From a virus: 31,108 bases of DNA. Below the pieces are notes generated by a model. It worked only from the letters and a program-made list of their open reading frames with translations. It did no database searches and had not been told where the DNA came from. A program made the translations under genes and the position numbers. Positions 20,201-29,074 of this stretch are shown piece by piece; the stretch's first letter is position 1, and each line of letters opens with the position of its first letter. The stretch covers positions 1 to 31,108 of the IMG/VR virus record IMGVR_UViG_3300009550_000041; one strand, written 5' to 3'.

Positions 20201-22453
20201 ATGGCACTAAGTCCTCAATTATTACAATTCAAATCAAGCGGTGTTTACCGTTTAGAATTTGATAAGTCTCAAGTATCTACAGTTACTGCAGAGACTATTA
20301 GGTTATTGGCAGGTCACTCTAAAAAAGGACCAATCAATACACCAGTATATTGCGAAGATACAGAATCTTTTACTCTTATCTTTGGTAATATCGATAAAAA
20401 ATTAGAAAAGAAAGGAATGTTCTTTCACAGAAGTTGTTTAGAAGCTCTTAAAAGAGGTCCTATTCTAGCTATTAATTTAGCAGACCTTTCATCAGCAGAT
20501 AAAGCTGACTATTGGAAAATTTCAACAGATGCGACAGGAGCATCTGCTGCAGCATCTTCAACTTCAGATGATGAATATGAATCATTCCACAACACTGACA
20601 AATTTATGTTTGCATCAGACTCTGAGTTTTTAGCAACTGTCGGAGAACACCCTGAAGAAGCATTAAACATTGTTAATTTAGGTAATGATAATCTTTCAGT
20701 TATCGTAAGACAAGCACAAGATGTTAAAGCTTTTGAAGTACAGGCTAGAGATTGGTATGGAACAGGAAATATTCCAGAAGGAATTTCTGAACTAGACTAT
20801 ATTTCAGACTACATGGTCGATGTCTTTGTATTTAAAGGTAAATTTGACGCAGCTGCGTTAGATGCAGACCCTGTATATGGAGATTACTTTACTTCAACTG
20901 GTCTTAAAAAAGATAAACTTAACGCTTTTGCAGATGAAAGACAAATCACTTTATTATCACAGTATACTGGTTCAATCATACCAAACTTTCAAGATTTAGA
21001 AGGAAATGGTCTATACATTGAACAAATAATAAATGCAGAAACTAGAAGAACTGGTTTATTTTGTGCAGTTAATGAAGAAGCTGTAGAAGATTCAAAAGTA
21101 AATTTAGTAGGAATAAATGCTGCTGTTGCTATTGACGCTTTATCTTATCAGATTGGAGCTACAGCTAGAGCCATAGATTTCTCAACAACTGATTTCGTTT
21201 ATACTTCAAATGGTTCATCATTTGATTTCGAATCTGCATCAAATGATGATTTAGATTTAGTTGTAGGAGACTATTTTCCAGGAGCAACAGGTACAGATTT
21301 AGTTAAAGTAACTAGAATTTCACAACAAGGTACTTCACCGACAGTATATACTGTTACATGTTCAGGACCAGTTGATTCAGGTTTTACAGTATCTTCTGAT
21401 GTTGCGTTTAAATCTCTTGAAAAAACAGCTACTGAGTACAGAATTTTTAATTTTGATGCAGCAACTTTAGCAGATCAGTCTATTTCAGATTGTTTAACTG
21501 CTATTTCATCAGATGGATTATTCTCTGCATTAACAGATAGAGACGTTATAGATTTAAGATATATTGTAGATACTTTTGGTTCAATAGATGGTTCAAACCT
21601 TTTAAATAAAAATGAATTTACAAGAATCGCAAAAGAAAGACAAAACGTATCTTGTATATTAAATGCACCTACAGTTGCTGAATTTAAAAAATCAACAGAC
21701 CCGTCGTTTAAAGATGCTACTACAAAGAAATTTAATACAAGATTTGTAAAAGATGGTGGTGATTTATCACAAAATCCAACTGCAATTTATTCGCTACCTT
21801 CAATTGCTGAAGGAGCTAATTACGGTTTTTATTACGGACCTGGTTTAGAAGTAAGAGAAAACGGAAAAGTTAAAACAGTTGTACCAGCAGCTTACGTATC
21901 TAATAACTATATTGATAAATTTACAAATGCACTTCCTTGGTCTATTGTATCAGGACCTAGAAGAGGAGTTATTACAGGAACTAACGTTATTGGAGCTGAA
22001 TATGCATTCGATAAAACAGACAGAGATAATTTAGAACCTTTTGGAATCAACCCAATTGTATTTGAAAGAGGAGTTGGACTAAATATTAAAGGTAATAAAA
22101 CAGGACAGCAAAGCGTAAAATCGGCTTTAAGTTCAGCTCACGTAAGAGAGGTATTAATCTTCATCGAAAATGGTTTAGCAGATATACTTAAAGATTACTT
22201 ATTTGAGTTTAACACTGCACAAACTAGATTAGAAATTAAAACACTTGCTGATTCATTCATGGATGGTGTTTTAGCAGATGAAGGTGTATTTGCATATAAT
22301 AATGTAATAGACTCAACTAACAACACAAATGAAGTTATAGATGCTAATATGGGTATCCTTGATACATTTGTAGAACCAGTTAAAGGTTTAGAAATTATTG
22401 TACATAGAACAACAGTACTTAATACTGGAGATATAGCTTCAGGTAACTTCTAA
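20201..22453 (+). CDS. 18: Contractile tail sheath protein, T4 gp18-like
   Basis: 750 residues (T4 gp18 is 659). The sheath surrounds the tail tube and contracts to drive the tube into the cell. The N-terminal region has the usual sheath pattern: LSPQLLQFKSSGVYRLEFDK, TIRLLAGHSKKGPINTPVYC, FTLIFGNIDKKLEKKGMFFH. The C-terminal domain needed for sheath polymerisation is recognisable (LPWSIVSGPRRGVITGTNVI; NIKGNKTGQQSVKSALSSAH; VREVLIFIENGL). The middle, about 330-430, is Ser/Asp/Thr-rich and variable, which would fit the surface-exposed inserted domains of sheath proteins. It has its own promoter and terminator. Confidence 0.94.
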   Translation: MALSPQLLQFKSSGVYRLEFDKSQVSTVTAETIRLLAGHSKKGPINTPVYCEDTESFTLIFGNIDKKLEKKGMFFHRSCLEALKRGPILAINLADLSSADKADYWKISTDATGASAAASSTSDDEYESFHNTDKFMFASDSEFLATVGEHPEEALNIVNLGNDNLSVIVRQAQDVKAFEVQARDWYGTGNIPEGISELDYISDYMVDVFVFKGKFDAAALDADPVYGDYFTSTGLKKDKLNAFADERQITLLSQYTGSIIPNFQDLEGNGLYIEQIINAETRRTGLFCAVNEEAVEDSKVNLVGINAAVAIDALSYQIGATARAIDFSTTDFVYTSNGSSFDFESASNDDLDLVVGDYFPGATGTDLVKVTRISQQGTSPTVYTVTCSGPVDSGFTVSSDVAFKSLEKTATEYRIFNFDAATLADQSISDCLTAISSDGLFSALTDRDVIDLRYIVDTFGSIDGSNLLNKNEFTRIAKERQNVSCILNAPTVAEFKKSTDPSFKDATTKKFNTRFVKDGGDLSQNPTAIYSLPSIAEGANYGFYYGPGLEVRENGKVKTVVPAAYVSNNYIDKFTNALPWSIVSGPRRGVITGTNVIGAEYAFDKTDRDNLEPFGINPIVFERGVGLNIKGNKTGQQSVKSALSSAHVREVLIFIENGLADILKDYLFEFNTAQTRLEIKTLADSFMDGVLADEGVFAYNNVIDSTNNTNEVIDANMGILDTFVEPVKGLEIIVHRTTVLNTGDIASGNF

Positions 22454-22551: not shown

Positions 22552-23106
22552 ATGGCATTACCACATTATTCAAACGACCAAACTAGCAAGAAAGGTAAGA
22601 ATTTTGAACCAGTATTAGCGAATATGTTTGAGGTAACTATTCTTCCACCAGCAGGAGTTGGAGGTCAAGAATTATTAATTCAACATATTAACAGTATTTC
22701 AGGTTTAGAACTTCATAAAGATTTGGGAACAGTAACCCAAAAATTCAAATGGTCTACAAGGTCTTTTACAGGTGTACCTGGAGATTCCTTCTTAGACGTT
22801 ACCGTTAATTTCTCATTAAACTTAAACGATGCAAATCAAATGTACCTTTACAAAACATTAAGAGATTGGTACAGACTAGCATATAACCCAGAAACTGGAG
22901 AAACGGGTCTTAAAAAAGACTACGTTGGACAGATGGTTATAGTTCAATTCAACAGAAAAGGTGATATTTTTAGAAAAATCACACTAGACGATTGTTTCGT
23001 ATATTCACCATTGAATCCATTGGCTGAAAATAACTATGAAACAGGAGACCCACAAGCAATTGATTGTGTATGGAGAGCTGACGTATGGTCAGAAGAATTA
23101 GCATAA
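22552..23106 (+). CDS. 19: Tail tube protein, T4 gp19-like
   Basis: 184 residues (T4 gp19 is 163). It stacks as hexameric rings into the inner tail tube. Typical features are NMFEVTILPP near the start, HINSISGLELHKDLGTVTQK, the FKWSTRSFTGVPGDSFLDVT beta region, and the aromatic stretch MYLYKTLRDWYRLAYNPETG followed by the conserved C-terminal strands (FVYSPLNPLAENNYETGD; VWRADVWSEELA). It directly follows the sheath gene, as in T4, but with a separate promoter and its own terminator. Confidence 0.93.
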   Translation: MALPHYSNDQTSKKGKNFEPVLANMFEVTILPPAGVGGQELLIQHINSISGLELHKDLGTVTQKFKWSTRSFTGVPGDSFLDVTVNFSLNLNDANQMYLYKTLRDWYRLAYNPETGETGLKKDYVGQMVIVQFNRKGDIFRKITLDDCFVYSPLNPLAENNYETGDPQAIDCVWRADVWSEELA

Positions 23107-23426: not shown

Positions 23427-24446
23427 ATGAGCAAAGAAGAAAACAAAAATGAAGAATTTGATAAATTCTTAAACAAAAAAGAAGAAGGCAACGGATACGA
23501 TTCTGTTGAAAACACTTCAACAGAAAAAGCTGGACCAGACTCAAACCCTGAGTTAGCCTCTTTTGAAGAAACAATCAATGAAAAAGGATTGGGTTCTGTA
23601 GATATTTCAAACTATGGAAGAAAAAAGGCAGATTCTACAGATACTGTATTAGGTTATGTACCTCTATCTATGGAAACACTTTTTTCTAAAGGTAGATTTT
23701 ATCCACAAGACGCATCTATTCATGTTAGATCTGCAAAAGTTGCAGAAATTAGACATTTTTCAACAATGAACGAGCAAAATATTTTGGACATTGAAGAAAA
23801 ATTAAACAACATTGTAAAATCTTGTATTAGATTTGAATCAAAATCTAAAAAGCTTTCATATAAAGACCTTATGGAAGAAGATAGAATTGCAGTACTTTTA
23901 GCAATTAGAGACCTTACTTTTCCAGAGCCTGAAAACAAAATCATAGTTCAAGCAGAAAATAGTTATGGTCAAACTAAAGATGTTGAGATTGCTACAAATA
24001 ATTTTGTTGCAAATGAAATTCCAGAAGAAATAGAAAAGTATTACGATGTAGTTTCAAGATGTTTTAGAATTCAAACTCGCTCATCTGGAGAAATATTAAT
24101 GAGACCCCCTTCTATTGGAGTTATGGAAGAAGTTACTAAGTATATTAGAACTCAGCAGGAAAGTAAAAAAAGATGGGACCAGGCCTTTATTCAAATCTTA
24201 CCATATATTCAGTTAGATTGGAGAGGTTTTAGTTCAAAAGAAATCTTTAATCAAGAGATAGACTTCCAAGGTTGGAATGAGAAAAAATACATGGTAGTAT
24301 ATAGATTAGCAGAAAAAATGAGAATTGGCGCACAGCCGGAAATGCAAGTAGATGTTGACGGGGAGGACGTTTCGGTCCCTCTCGATTTCCCAGGTGGAGT
24401 CAAAAGCCTTTTCATTATTTCAGATCTCGCTGGAGAGCTTCTTTAA
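23427..24446 (+). CDS. 26: Tail assembly/baseplate hub protein, T4 gp26-like, upstream partner of a frameshift
   Basis: 339 residues. After an acidic, disordered first 70 residues comes YVPLSMETLFSKGRFYPQ, then IHVRSAKVAEIRHFSTMNEQ, then the helical DRIAVLLAIRDLTFPEPEN. This order (short LP-x-S-x-G-x-YP strand, VR strand, then EE/IL helices) is that of the gp26-type proteins of T4-like phages. Such proteins belong with tail tape-measure chaperones and hub assembly. The frame ends at TAA 24444-24446 in GGAGAG-CTT-CTT-TAA, a likely +1 frameshift site leading into an 82-residue extension. In T4, genes 26 and 51 are adjacent and the tape measure gene 29 lies downstream, which fits this order. Confidence 0.75.
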   Translation: MSKEENKNEEFDKFLNKKEEGNGYDSVENTSTEKAGPDSNPELASFEETINEKGLGSVDISNYGRKKADSTDTVLGYVPLSMETLFSKGRFYPQDASIHVRSAKVAEIRHFSTMNEQNILDIEEKLNNIVKSCIRFESKSKKLSYKDLMEEDRIAVLLAIRDLTFPEPENKIIVQAENSYGQTKDVEIATNNFVANEIPEEIEKYYDVVSRCFRIQTRSSGEILMRPPSIGVMEEVTKYIRTQQESKKRWDQAFIQILPYIQLDWRGFSSKEIFNQEIDFQGWNEKKYMVVYRLAEKMRIGAQPEMQVDVDGEDVSVPLDFPGGVKSLFIISDLAGELL

Positions 24447-24447
24447 G
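24432..24447 (+). other. Candidate programmed +1 ribosomal frameshift site
   Basis: GGAGAG CTT CTT TAA G. A purine-rich Shine-Dalgarno-like hexamer is followed, after exactly one codon, by CTT and the stop codon. A P-site tRNA on CTT can re-pair with TTT one base forward, and the next codon becomes AAG. The release factor 2 gene of E. coli uses AGGGGG TAT CTT TGA C with the same spacing. The +1 frame is open from here to the TAG at 24691-24693. Confidence 0.7.
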
Positions 24448-24693
24448 GCTAAATTCTATCTGGGTTTTCATTTGCATCTCCAGCCTAGTGAAATTGATGC
24501 ACTCGACTTTTATGAGTATCAGTATTATATACAAAATCTTACTGAGCATCTTAAAAAGCAAAATAAAGAAGAGGCTGAACAAAATGAACAGATGCAAGAG
24601 CAATATGGTACAAAAGCACCAAAAACACCAAAAATGAGTGATTATGGGGTAAATATGCCTAAAATTCCAAGTATGAAAATGCCTAAGTTTTAG
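24445..24693 (+). CDS. Frameshift extension, tail chaperone-like (gp51 position)
   Basis: 82 codons in the +1 frame after the gp26-like stop. The sequence KAKFYLGFHLHLQPSEIDAL then DFYEYQYYIQNLTEHLKKQN is typical in style of the second half of tail assembly chaperones (a LxPSEIDxxxxYEYxxY element and a charged helix). It ends with a Pro/Met/Lys-rich tail (NMPKIPSMKMPKF). An ATG at 24352 begins this frame directly after a stop, but its first 31 codons overlap the gp26-like gene and look like an out-of-frame shadow. The fusion product would be about 421 residues. Immediately downstream is the tape measure gene, as expected for such chaperones. Confidence 0.68.
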   Translation, partial: KAKFYLGFHLHLQPSEIDALDFYEYQYYIQNLTEHLKKQNKEEAEQNEQMQEQYGTKAPKTPKMSDYGVNMPKIPSMKMPKF

Positions 24694-24721: not shown

Positions 24722-27700
24722 TTGGCAAGACCATTTTCATCCCCGTTTGAAAAATTATCAGTAGATAATCAGAAAGTTTTAATCGAACAGCTCTCCCCAG
24801 GAGGAGAGCTGTTTAGTTTGTTTGAAGAAATTTTAAATCAACTTCAAAGTACTGACGATCGCCAGCAAAAAGACGAAGCAAAAACAAAAGTAAGTTTATT
24901 TTCTGGTTTAACAATTAAAGAAGCATTAGCATGGAAACTGCTAGGAGAAAAAGGTCTTCAATCTATAGGTAAAGGTTTAGGAGCGATAGCTGAAGTTATT
25001 GACAAAATGACCACTGCCGGTAAAGAAGTTAAAGAAAGAATAGAAGGTATAGCGATGGGTATCGAAACGGTATTTGGCATTGCTCCTAAAATTCTTAAGT
25101 TTGCATTTACCATGGTGCTAGCTCTTCCACTTTTAATGCTTGCCGTAGTAGCAGTGCCTTTTATAGGGCTATTGCTATTAGGTACTTTAGCAATAATGGG
25201 TATTTTAAGTAAAGTTGCAGAGAAACAAAAAGGAATGTATGAGAGTCTAGCTCTTTTAGGAGATGTAGGCGCTGCAATATTAAAATTTGGAGGTTATTTA
25301 GCACTTTCTGCACTGGTATATCCAATAGCGTTACTTGGTATGATAGTAGTTATACCTACGTTGCTAATAATGTTAGCTGCGTTAACACTTATAGGACGTT
25401 TAGTAGACCCTAAATCTATGGAAAAATATAAAGGTTTAGAAGAAGTAGGTAAAGCAATACTTTTATTCGGTGGATATTTAGCACTCTCTTTATTAATATA
25501 TCCATTTGCTATATTAGCAACACCTATGGTTCTCGGAGTAATAGTTGGTTTTGCTGTAGTATTTGCTCTTTTAGATAGATTTGGTTTTGTAAAATCTGTA
25601 AATAAAGCTGGAAAAGCACTTAAACAAGTAGGAATAGCAATATTAGTATTAGGTGCCGCTTTATTTATTTTTGGACTTATTTTTCCACCTACCGTAGAAA
25701 CATTTCAAACTTTAGGTTTTGTAATGTTAGTACTTGTAGGTATTTCTGCCGCTATGTGGTTAGTCGGTAAAATGTATAAAAAAATGAGAAAAGGTGCAAT
25801 AGGACTTGCCTTAACAGGTCTTGCTATTCTAGTATTAGGATATGCCCTTAAGAAATTTGAAGAATCTTTGCCTGCCAATCCATGGGAATTCTTTGCTGAA
25901 TTAGGAGTTGCACTTGTAGGTTTAGGTGTAATAATGTATGGTTATGGTTCACAATGGAAAAGTATAGCAAAAGGTGCATTAGTACTTGCCGGATCTGGAT
26001 TAGCCCTTGCACTTATGGGATATGGTATTTCAGAAATAGGAGAAGCTTTAAATAGTACAGGAGATGCTTGGATGTTTATGGCTGAACTTGGAGTATTTCT
26101 TGTTGGTATGGGAGTTATGGCAGCAGGTTGGGGTGCAGCAGTAATGTTGATAGGTCCGGGTCTTTTAGCAATGGGTGGTGCAGGAGTTGCATTAAAATCA
26201 GTATCATGGGGTCTAGAAGGATTTATACCTATATTTAAAGGTTCAGAATGGAAATCTATGGTAGGCGAACATCATAAATCTAAAGGTATTTTAGGAATGG
26301 GTGGTGGATCTGTATCTAATTTTCAAGCTCTAATGGAAGCTGTAGGTTATAGCTTTATTTGGAACCCTGTTTCGGTTGCCGGTATTTTAGGAGGAGCAGC
26401 AGCTCTTGGTGCAGCAGGATTGGCATTAAAGCCTCTTGCTAAAGGTATTAATGATATGATTCCTATATTTAAAGGAAAAGGTTGGAAAGAAATGGTTGAA
26501 ACTAAAGGAAACCCTAAAGCCGGAGGTATTTTAGGATTTGGTGCTACTGAACAAACAAATATTCAACTTTTAATAAGTTCTATAGCAAACTCCTTTAAAT
26601 TAGGCTTTGGTGTTATTAATGTAGGTGCAGGTGCAGGTGCAATGGCAATTGTAGGAAAATCTTTAAGTAAATTAGCAGTAGGACTAAATGATTTTATGAA
26701 ATATAAAATAAGTAAAACTATTGCAAAGAATATTGCTTCTATGGTTGATGCAGTCGCCGGTACTTTTGGTGAGATAGGAAAAGAATATGGAGGTGCTGGC
26801 TTTTTTGGTTTGGGCGCAGGACCATTATATGATGGTATTGAAGCAACGATGGGAATGGGTGATGCTTTAACTAGCATCGCAAAAGGTATGGCTGCTGTAG
26901 CAGAACTTAGATTTCCTACTTATGGAGACCCTAAAAACCCTGGTAAAATAACTGAATATATTACTTTAGATAAAGGTAAAATGAGAGACGTTTCAGCCAA
27001 TGTTGCAGATATGGTTGATGCTCTTGCAAGTGCTTTTGGTGAAGTAGGAAAGAGATATCCTAATAAGCCTGCATCTGGTTTATGGGGCTTTTTTGGAGGA
27101 ACAGAGAATCCTGTAAAAACAGGTCTATCTTCAGTTAGTGGTATGGGAAGTGCATTAGGAGGAATTGCACAGGGAATGCAAGATTTCTCAACTCTTAAAT
27201 TTCATAAATATGATGACCCTACTAACCCTGAAAAAATAACAGCAACAATTGACTTAACCCAAGGAGACGTACTTAGTGAAGTTACTGCAAACATAGTTTC
27301 GATGATCGATTCTTTAGCAACAGGTTTTGCTCAAATAGGTATAAGATATCCAAAAGTAAAAAAGAAAGGTTGGTTCGGTATAACTTATTCTACTAATGGA
27401 CCTGTTGGTGTAGGTATTGAACAATCTTCAGGTATGGGTGCTATTGTAGCGGCAATAGGTCAGGGAATGAGAGATTTTTCAGAAATGAAATTTCCGGTAT
27501 ATGATGGAACTAAAGTAGTAGAATACATTGATTTGACAAAAGGAAATGCCCTTAAAAAAGTTACAAGCAATATTACTGAAATGGTTCTATCTTTAGCTGG
27601 AGGTTTTGCTGAAGTTGCAAGAAGGTTCCCTAGAAAAAAATACAAAACTTGGTGGGGAGCTACCAGATATGCACCGGACGGTACAGTAGGTGAAGGGGTA

Positions 27701-29074
27701 AAACAGGCATCAGGTATGGGTGGTGTAATATCAGAATTAGGTTCTGGTTTAAAAGACTTTTCTACACTTAAATTTCCAATTTACAAAGGTACTAAAGTAG
27801 TAGGATATACCACTCTTACTAGTCAGACTATGGGTAAGACGACTGACAATATCGTATATATGATAGAATCTCTCATGAATGGTTTTGCTAAGATAGGAGA
27901 TAAATACGGTTCTTGGCCAGGTACTAGAAGTTCAGTACAACAAGGTGTACAAGCTGCGCAGGGCGCAGGATTTGAAGTTGCAATGTTGGCTATAGGTTTA
28001 AAGTCAATGGCTATGTTAAGATTCCCAATTTATAAAGGTAAGAGAATTGTAGGTTATGAATCTCTTACGGGAGATGGTATAGAAAAAGTAGCAAGAAATA
28101 TTTATATGATGATATCCTCTCCTTTAGATGCTTTCGGTAGGATTGGTAAAAAATATGGTGGAGAAGTCGTTAGTTTTATGGGAGTTAGAAGCGGAGATGG
28201 AGGAGACGTAGGTAAAGGTATTCTAGCCGCAAAAGAATTACCTAAAGGATTAGGAACAGTAATGGGTTCTATTTTGGGAGTAGTAAGTCATAAAAACTTT
28301 AAAGAAGTTGTAAAAGCAACACCTATAGTTTCTAAAATGGTTACTATGATAGGAGAATCATTTGAACCACTTGCTAAAGCAGGCCCTGATGGCATTATGG
28401 CTTCTGCAAATGCAGTTAAATATTATTTTGAGCAGTTTGCAACTATAGAAACTCCAATCAAAAATTGGTTAAAGTTATCAGATAATTATAGAACTATGCA
28501 ACTAACAAATAGATATTTTGCAGGTATCGCTCGCTCAACTAAAGAAATTGGAGAAACTCCAGTATTTGGTGCAATGATGCTTTCTAGATTAACTAAAACC
28601 CTACAAGATAGAAAATTAATGAAAACTGCCTTAGCAATGACACATATTGCAAATGCTTATAAAAAAATACAGGTATCTTCTACTGAAATGGAAATTGAGG
28701 CTTTAGAAAAGTCAACAGAGATGTTTAAAGCACTTTCTTATCTTACTGAACAGGGAGGTGAAACTGCAATAGAGGCATTAGGAGATAATTTAATTGAAGC
28801 TGTAAAAGAATTAGCATCAATGATAGCTAATTTTGAACAGACTGTTGGTGACGCTAAAGACCAGAATGCTGATGTTGCTGAAAAAATGGAAAATACAGGA
28901 AGCATATTTGATAGAGTAGCAGCAGTATTTTCAGATAATCCTGCAACACCAATAGGTCAGCCAACTCCTTCAGCTGATCCTTCACCATCTTCATCTTCTG
29001 GAGATATGCAAGAGTTAATAGATATATTGACTAGTGGTGACGCAATAGTTCAAGTACAAAAGACTTTTGATTAA
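24722..29074 (+). CDS. Tail tape measure protein (gp29 position), 1450 residues, TTG start
   Basis: The largest gene in the window. Tape measure proteins set tail length and are held by the chaperones encoded just upstream. Residues about 120-500 contain many hydrophobic stretches (for example LALPLLMLAVVAVPFIGLLL), some repeated (GGYLALSALVYPIALLGMIV and GGYLALSLLIYPFAILATPM). Residues about 670-1150 contain six modules of 83-97 residues. The last 250 residues are helical with a Ser/Pro-rich linker near the end. T4 gp29 is 590 residues and I see no direct similarity, so the call rests on size, composition and position. The start is TTG at 24722: it directly follows an in-frame stop, sits 19 bases after a late box, and no ATG follows in this frame for about 280 bases. 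Confidence 0.82.
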   Translation: MARPFSSPFEKLSVDNQKVLIEQLSPGGELFSLFEEILNQLQSTDDRQQKDEAKTKVSLFSGLTIKEALAWKLLGEKGLQSIGKGLGAIAEVIDKMTTAGKEVKERIEGIAMGIETVFGIAPKILKFAFTMVLALPLLMLAVVAVPFIGLLLLGTLAIMGILSKVAEKQKGMYESLALLGDVGAAILKFGGYLALSALVYPIALLGMIVVIPTLLIMLAALTLIGRLVDPKSMEKYKGLEEVGKAILLFGGYLALSLLIYPFAILATPMVLGVIVGFAVVFALLDRFGFVKSVNKAGKALKQVGIAILVLGAALFIFGLIFPPTVETFQTLGFVMLVLVGISAAMWLVGKMYKKMRKGAIGLALTGLAILVLGYALKKFEESLPANPWEFFAELGVALVGLGVIMYGYGSQWKSIAKGALVLAGSGLALALMGYGISEIGEALNSTGDAWMFMAELGVFLVGMGVMAAGWGAAVMLIGPGLLAMGGAGVALKSVSWGLEGFIPIFKGSEWKSMVGEHHKSKGILGMGGGSVSNFQALMEAVGYSFIWNPVSVAGILGGAAALGAAGLALKPLAKGINDMIPIFKGKGWKEMVETKGNPKAGGILGFGATEQTNIQLLISSIANSFKLGFGVINVGAGAGAMAIVGKSLSKLAVGLNDFMKYKISKTIAKNIASMVDAVAGTFGEIGKEYGGAGFFGLGAGPLYDGIEATMGMGDALTSIAKGMAAVAELRFPTYGDPKNPGKITEYITLDKGKMRDVSANVADMVDALASAFGEVGKRYPNKPASGLWGFFGGTENPVKTGLSSVSGMGSALGGIAQGMQDFSTLKFHKYDDPTNPEKITATIDLTQGDVLSEVTANIVSMIDSLATGFAQIGIRYPKVKKKGWFGITYSTNGPVGVGIEQSSGMGAIVAAIGQGMRDFSEMKFPVYDGTKVVEYIDLTKGNALKKVTSNITEMVLSLAGGFAEVARRFPRKKYKTWWGATRYAPDGTVGEGVKQASGMGGVISELGSGLKDFSTLKFPIYKGTKVVGYTTLTSQTMGKTTDNIVYMIESLMNGFAKIGDKYGSWPGTRSSVQQGVQAAQGAGFEVAMLAIGLKSMAMLRFPIYKGKRIVGYESLTGDGIEKVARNIYMMISSPLDAFGRIGKKYGGEVVSFMGVRSGDGGDVGKGILAAKELPKGLGTVMGSILGVVSHKNFKEVVKATPIVSKMVTMIGESFEPLAKAGPDGIMASANAVKYYFEQFATIETPIKNWLKLSDNYRTMQLTNRYFAGIARSTKEIGETPVFGAMMLSRLTKTLQDRKLMKTALAMTHIANAYKKIQVSSTEMEIEALEKSTEMFKALSYLTEQGGETAIEALGDNLIEAVKELASMIANFEQTVGDAKDQNADVAEKMENTGSIFDRVAAVFSDNPATPIGQPTPSADPSPSSSSGDMQELIDILTSGDAIVQVQKTFD
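24786..24813 (+). other. Perfect 11-bp inverted repeat inside start of tape measure gene
   Basis: AACAGCTCTCC and GGAGAGCTGTT are separated by a 6-base loop, 64 bases into the gene. It is GC-rich for this genome and not followed by a T tract, so it is not a simple terminator. It may slow translation or be chance constrained by the coded peptide. Confidence 0.4.
26729..28150 (+). repeat. Six diverged coding modules in the tape measure gene
   Basis: Cores of the type N(I/V)xxMVxxLAxxFxExGxxY start at 26729, 26999, 27290, 27569, 27848 and 28097 (residues 670, 760, 857, 950, 1043, 1126). Between cores lie GMGxxxxxIxxGMxDFSxLKFPxY and then xxYxxLT elements. Spacing 90, 97, 93, 93, 83 residues. 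Diverged at DNA level, so an old internal expansion. Confidence 0.85.

Follow-up and report, generated by a model that had tools for sequence, protein, structure and literature searches.

Here we describe a tail gene locus in a 31,108-base virus record (IMG/VR record IMGVR_UViG_3300009550_000041; this whole stretch is called the window, and positions are those of the window) that very probably encodes a tail assembly chaperone pair of the G/GT type, related to T4 gp26 (short form) and gp51 (long form) and made by a programmed ribosomal shift at the codon pair CTT-TTC, with −2 the more likely direction. Comparison of related loci indicates that coding constraint switches frame at this CTTTTC hexamer, 36 nucleotides (nt) before the stop codon of the short form, and that the 30-nt overlap between hexamer and stop is constrained in both reading frames. 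The frame relation, the slip sequence and the continued open frame appear to be conserved, with exceptions given below. The original prediction for this DNA had likewise proposed that a gp26-type protein continues into a tail-chaperone extension read in the +1 frame, and homology of both halves supports this well; it had placed the join at a site resembling that of release factor 2 (RF2) genes, and that part is not supported.

The gp26-like frame ends, as had been stated, in GGAGAG-CTT-CTT-TAA-G (24432-24447 reads GGA GAG CTT CTT TAA G), and the +1 frame does continue for 82 codons past the stop: it is open from 24352, directly after a TAG, to 24691-24693, with 31 codons before 24445 and 82 after. 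The region first singled out (24432-24693) leaves out the hexamer at 24408-24413.

Relatives were gathered in two families. For family 1, a scan with the window open reading frame (ORF) gave 62 loci, 60 of them usable, including the same sequence on a longer contig (L002), by which the window's own contig is represented; an alignment scan, with 428 confirmed relatives, contributed the best 80, some of them from the same contigs, and LR756500 was added. This gave 140 usable loci, whose 93-nt junctions comprise 56 distinct sequences. Family 2 comprises the best 80 of 159 loci from a scan with two huge-phage relatives, plus both relatives themselves, for 82 loci and 42 distinct junctions. Counts are given for distinct junctions, since some contigs among the 140 and 82 loci are duplicates or nearly identical to one another, and junction positions are counted from the T of TAA. 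Two loci that end before the stop (L022, L088) and one with an early frame break (L023) were left out of all junction counts; L061 was omitted from the phase and tree tests and kept in the junction counts, and loci with too little flank were omitted from the same tests. Phage records were represented by 13 of the 31 matched, one or two per near-identical group, and the homologous site was compared in 12 representatives, of which each of the two families supplied two. For the cyanophage set, Syn9 was combined with its best 80 among 597 confirmed relatives in IMG/VR. Single-protein scans for relatives returned none for MA9V-1 and one for PAU, namely PAU itself. The recorded hosts of named relatives are Prevotella, Tenacibaculum, Chryseobacterium and Flavobacterium, with one phage (PAU) recorded from Sphingomonas.

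The hexamer CTTTTC lies 36 nt before the stop in 55 of the 56 family-1 junctions, the exception being L061, and ATTTTC occupies the homologous place in all 42 family-2 junctions. Upstream in the same genes, CTT makes up 28% of leucine codons in family 1 and ATT 58% of isoleucine codons in family 2, while NTT-TTC occurs in 6 of 8747 codon pairs across the 24 window ORFs. Among the 12 representatives, [C/A]TTTT[C/T] is found at the homologous place in nine, and is missing from pT24, Lak-C1 and L061.

The distribution of substitutions places the change of frame at the same point. None of the 56 family-1 junctions has a +1-frame stop, and in loci of the first scan that are not cut short the +1 frame stays open for 73-90 codons past the stop. 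In column variation across 34 distinct family-1 sequences, differences fall mostly on frame-0 third positions upstream of about −46 and mostly on +1 third positions from −30; directly upstream of the hexamer, variation tracks frame-0 wobble in both families. Tree parsimony on 70 family-1 sequences gave, for phases 0/1/2, 3.06/3.25/8.44 changes per site upstream (frame-0 wobble), 2.9/0.8/0.6 in the overlap and 11.1/4.0/1.7 after the stop (both +1 wobble); the corresponding values for 46 family-2 sequences were 0.79/0.71/3.57, 1.17/0.25/0.67 and 8.7/3.3/1.15. Amino-acid changes on the tree within the overlap were fewest in the +1 frame: family 1 had 14 there, compared with 23 for frame 0 and 32 for +2, and family 2 had 11, compared with 18 and 21. 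Over all family-1 pairs, synonymous codon differences in the overlap amounted to 58% in +1, 32% in frame 0 and 0% in +2, and after the stop to 58%, 4.5% and 9.6%, respectively. The family-1 overlap changes mostly at the +1 wobble position, with a total rate of 26-29% of that of its flanks. Because of the tree changes and the synonymous fractions, we consider that the overlap is read in the +1 frame and that frame 0 is constrained there as well.

The C-terminal 161 residues of the fused product (from 24207), read with a +1 shift at CTTT and so without the one phenylalanine that a −2 shift would add, match PHROG 634 (gp51) with 30.5 bits and an E-value of 6.9e-7, and the match starts four residues before the junction. 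The unshifted +1 ORF scored 28.1 bits (3.8e-6), and the fusion at the stop that had first been put forward 13.8 bits (0.1). In profile comparisons with hhalign, the short-form family matched the cyanophage gp26 profile at 7e-7, in an alignment that ends with KSLF against ASFF, the slip sites of both, and the extension matched the cyanophage extension profile at 1.3e-10; cyanophage gp26 in turn matched the T4 gp26/gp51 profile at 1.1e-10. PF12322 was found in 4 of 25 family members (best 1.9e-9), the window protein itself being unmatched. In T4, PF12322 is matched by gp26 as well as gp51, across almost the entire profile, and so is phrog_150; residues 147-246 of gp51 also match phrog_634; because gp51 alone adds phrog_634, gp51 carries both halves and gp26 is the short-form counterpart. 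A model of short-form residues 70-339 had a predicted local distance difference test score (pLDDT) of 86, and its Foldseek matches, after its own relatives, were models named baseplate hub or gp51-like (2.7e-10 to 7.8e-4). The short form thus appears to belong with gp26 and PF12322, through its relatives rather than the window protein alone, and both halves, as judged from sequence, with gp26/gp51, which in T4 are listed as hub assembly chaperones (PMC3004832). A fold search of the PDB gave no match with E<0.001, and a second look none with Z of at least 5, where a missing match shows nothing; sequence matches to solved structures (E 0.0015 for RavO, 0.12 and 0.11) were judged to be chance.

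From these patterns we infer the ribosomal shift itself, together with its direction, its efficiency and the chaperone role. Most ribosomes would read ORF1 to the TAA at 24444, yielding a short form ending in FIISDLAGELL, while a minority would slip at CTT-TTC and continue in the +1 frame, adding SLFQISLESFFKAKFYL...MPKF; the two products would act as chaperones in putting the tail tube on the tape measure. In the −2 version, peptidyl-tRNA-Phe would leave TTC and re-pair with the TTT that overlaps it upstream, and the product would read GGVKSLF-SLFQ. We moderately favour −2 over +1 for a shift at [C/A]-TTT-TC because ATT replaces CTT in family 2, PTm1, MA9V and LR756501. By the pairing rules, tRNA-Phe can re-pair two bases back on TTT at all N-TTT-T[C/T] sites; tRNA-Leu can move to TTT, as in the RF2 slip, whereas for tRNA-Ile the first base of TTT is a mismatch.

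The alternative at the same site is a +1 shift, in which tRNA-Leu moves from CTT to TTT while TTC occupies the A site, so that the product reads GGVKSL-SLFQ; it is a sub-case that overlaps the explanation preferred here, and we hold it to be possible, if somewhat doubtful. In its favour, a +1 slip on CTT is what RF2 genes employ, 55 of the 56 family-1 junctions keep CTT, and TTC is the less used phenylalanine codon (9.5 v 38.5 per 1000 in the 24 window ORFs). However, the A site would hold neither a stop codon nor any sign of a very rare codon, and wherever ATT replaces CTT the shift would leave tRNA-Ile with its first-base mismatch. The predicted tryptic junction peptides for the window are SLFSLFQISLESFFK for −2, SLSLFQISLESFFK for +1 at CTT_TTC and SLFIISDLAGELLK for +1 at the stop.

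The mechanism originally put forward was an RF2-like, stop-dependent +1 shift at CTT_TAA with GGAGAG as a Shine-Dalgarno stimulator, from which a link between tail assembly and release factor activity had been drawn. Its layout is real in the window, where CTT precedes the stop and the Shine-Dalgarno-like hexamer stands at RF2-like spacing, and part of it is kept in family 1: CTT-TAA occurs in 56 of 56 junctions, G follows in 55 of 56, and GGAGA[A/G] is retained in 45 of 56. Yet CTTTTC, 36 nt before the stop, is where both the +1 constraint and the homology to gp51 set in, so that the frame switch lies upstream of the element and both frames code where it stands, and the Shine-Dalgarno-like hexamer is changed in the other 11 family-1 junctions. 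In family 2 neither CTT-stop nor GGAGA[A/G] occurs in any of the 42 junctions, the codon before the stop being GAA (41) or AAA (1); among the 12 representatives, CTT precedes the stop in two, both of family 1. According to a 2016 review, TAA is read by both RF1 and RF2, and RF2 genes use UGA-C (PMC5009743), while the context here is TAA-G. The proposed link to release factor is likewise unsupported. Frame 0 keeps LL-stop (ELL-stop also in PTm1, ELI-stop in MA9V) and the +1 frame keeps FFK or YFK in family 1, and the conserved CTT-CTT-TAA is accounted for because two overlapping proteins share those bases. Lak-like relatives, which end in TTT-TAA or CTT-TAA, do so without the upstream hexamer, a point in favour of a stop-dependent shift; for the window, whether alone or as a second entry, we regard such a shift, with its expected product ELL-KAKF, as improbable.

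Several observations weigh against a shift at CTT-TTC in a 26/51-type chaperone. The window family compared directly with T4 26/51 gives a weak result (2e-4, probability 45%), its extension has no match to the T4 gp51 C-terminus in direct profile comparison, the cyanophage extension matches T4 weakly (7.5e-4), and the extension model is too poor for use (pLDDT 49.5). The hexamer is missing in pT24, Lak and L061, and the Lak-like L345 has TTA TTC; a gp51-like peptide is nonetheless encoded in the +1 frame of L061 and pT24, which, lacking the hexamer, need another site or mechanism. LR756501 (L071, 3285-3400) has ATTTTC, yet its FSVF-like extension start lies after the ORF1 stop. A stimulatory RNA structure is not convincing: three window stretches gave z of −2.16, 0.19 and −2.04, the consensus fold reached −9 kcal/mol and showed double changes in 3 of its 18 pairs, and there was no Rfam match at gathering. 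Plain amino-acid conservation in the overlap does not separate the frames (0.89 v 0.90 in family 1, 0.96 v 0.97 in family 2), nor do all-pairs synonymous counts in family 2 (frame 0 248/941, +1 204/924, from −30). Finally, start codons stand in the +1 frame within ORF1: in family 1, GTG at −50 in 45 of 56 junctions and at −53 in 7 of 56; in family 2, ATG at −26 in 41 of 42 and TTG at −20 in 42 of 42.

With the exceptions, the single family-1 contig concerned (L061/L320) has ATC TTT ATT CCG at the slip position and a similar +1 peptide. In pT24 (L075), ATT GTC replaces the hexamer and TTG codons lie nearby in the +1 frame; this phage may start its extension separately.

The internal starts of the two families, with an ATG at 24352 in the window and ATG codons at −8 and −5 in MaF61, raise the alternative of no fusion, in which translation of the extension has its own start within ORF1 and the product works in trans; the isolate records L069 (PAU gp93/gp94), L072, L074, L076 and L067 indeed annotate the extension as a small gene with an internal start codon. 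A conserved start of its own for the second frame, together with no overlap, had been named in advance as a sign against the fusion, and starts are indeed present within each family, with the +1-frame overlap kept; however, their position and type differ between the families, no start codon is common to them, and one family-1 junction (L064) has no ATG, GTG or TTG in the open +1 frame before the stop. Variation upstream of the hexamer follows frame-0 wobble in both families, the phrog_634 match spans the junction, and T4 gp51 has both halves in one gene, all of which makes separate initiation a quite unlikely account. Sequencing or assembly error, or a decaying gene, has nothing beyond a frame break in metagenomic contigs to suggest it and is practically negligible, given that the frame relation is shared by the 56 and 42 distinct junctions and by the isolates PAU, MA9V-1/2, PTm1, pT24 and MaF61.

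Table 1. Coordinates of the putative chaperone locus and its neighbours in the window.
Feature	Position	Strand	Details and evidence
Short form, putative G / gp26-type tail assembly chaperone	23427..24446	+	339 amino acids, ATG at 23427, C-terminus GGVKSLFIISDLAGELL then stop; gp26 profile, fold model
Candidate shift site CTTTTC, frame 0 = CTT TTC	24408..24413	+	junction conservation, constraint-frame switch
Putative T-type (gp51-like) extension, +1 frame	24412..24693	+	SLFQISLESFFKAKFYL...MPKF, stop 24691-24693; translation, PHROG 634, cyanophage-extension profile
Overlap, apparently constrained in both frames	24414..24443	+	IISDLAGELL (frame 0), LFQISLESFF (+1)
RF2-like element GGAGAG CTT CTT, taken as by-product of dual coding	24432..24443	+	hexamer kept 45/56 family 1, absent family 2
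Short-form stop TAA	24444..24446	+	sequence
Tail sheath protein (neighbour)	20201..22453	+	phrog_34521 tail sheath, E 1.3e-123
Tail tube protein (neighbour)	22552..23106	+	phrog_45 tail tube, E 6.1e-9; phrog_32623 (unknown function), E 7.1e-42
Probable tape measure protein (neighbour)	24722..29074	+	1450 amino acids, TTG start as listed; position and length only

The locus follows tail sheath and tail tube genes (Table 1) and lies upstream of a probable tape measure gene. This 1450-residue ORF is probably the tape measure by virtue of its place and length; family searches with it gave no tape-measure family match.

A known parallel is in cyanophages, where T-TTT-TTC lies 10 nt before the stop and an open −1 frame leads into a gp51-like peptide in 75 of 75 distinct junctions of the set described above. 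We do not claim this −1 result as new. The cyanophage genes share the same two domains, and the fusion point stands at the same protein position; they differ in that the shift is −1, 10 nt before the stop, whereas the window phage enters the +1 frame 36 nt before it. In Syn9 (L239 6478-7388; the cyanophage loci are L240-L319), the annotated 47-residue gp51 begins at an internal TTG.

T4 has related halves, the relation running mainly via the cyanophage members, and its gp51 corresponds to the long form; the short form of the window ends in GVKSLF..ELL and stop, gp26 in GLKEFFELL and stop. T4 has two paralogous genes, found on opposite strands (L077 3803-5229) and thus separate, as had been stated, whereas the window has one gene with two overlapping frames.

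In lambda, GT is made from G by a −1 shift at GGGAAAG. The arrangement there, described in the 2016 review, has a short and a frameshifted long chaperone preceding the tape measure gene (PMC5009743); the likeness to the putative pair of the window is one of arrangement, and the direction in lambda is −1. If the −2 direction holds, phage Mu and the arteriviruses offer another parallel, covered in that review (PMC5009743), in reaching the +1 frame by −2, although their sites are different and the proposal for the window is a single P-site tRNA-Phe on N-TTT-TC. The RF2 gene, prfB, shares with the window the CTT before the stop and a Shine-Dalgarno-like hexamer at similar spacing; it differs in that the constraint switch of the window is elsewhere, the stop context is TAA-G rather than UGA-C, and the element is not kept outside family 1.

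Lak and Lak-like loci (L065, L066, L343, L345) have no [C/A]TTTTC, ORF1 there ends in TTT-TAA or CTT-TAA, and the +1 extension is longer. In L065 and L343 a TAG lies inside the +1 extension, and TAG is recoded in Lak. A stop-dependent +1 shift is possible in these relatives.

Tail chaperones are known to be frameshifted by −1, +1 or −2. A paper by Vladimirov et al. (2022, Virology) is said, by its title, to argue for another mechanism in T4-like phages, so that T4-type chaperones are reportedly already in print. The window locus appears to be a variant of this known frameshifting with a different slip site. The 2016 review describes tail chaperone frameshifting as widely conserved except in T4 (PMC5009743). 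Among open-licence PMC texts, as represented by their titles and abstract openings, we found no paper on a 26/51-type frameshift in Bacteroidota phages.

Tentatively, we propose that an ancestral 26/51-type chaperone was frameshifted and that its branches kept the fusion point while changing the decoding: −2 at [C/A]-UUU-UC, a new single-tRNA-Phe class, in the branch of the window; a −1 shift at U-UUU-UUC among the cyanophages; gene duplication in T4; and, in Lak-type megaphages, perhaps a stop-dependent +1 shift, with CTT-TAA conceivably a second entry in family 1. The apparent shift in the window also suggests that the small second genes of PAU, MA9V-1/2, PTm1 and MaF61, and the 47-residue gp51 of Syn9, may be the 3′ ends of frameshift products. 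If the window phage does shift into the +1 frame where its cyanophage relatives have a −1 site, one protein family would constitute a natural series on the evolution of frameshift direction.
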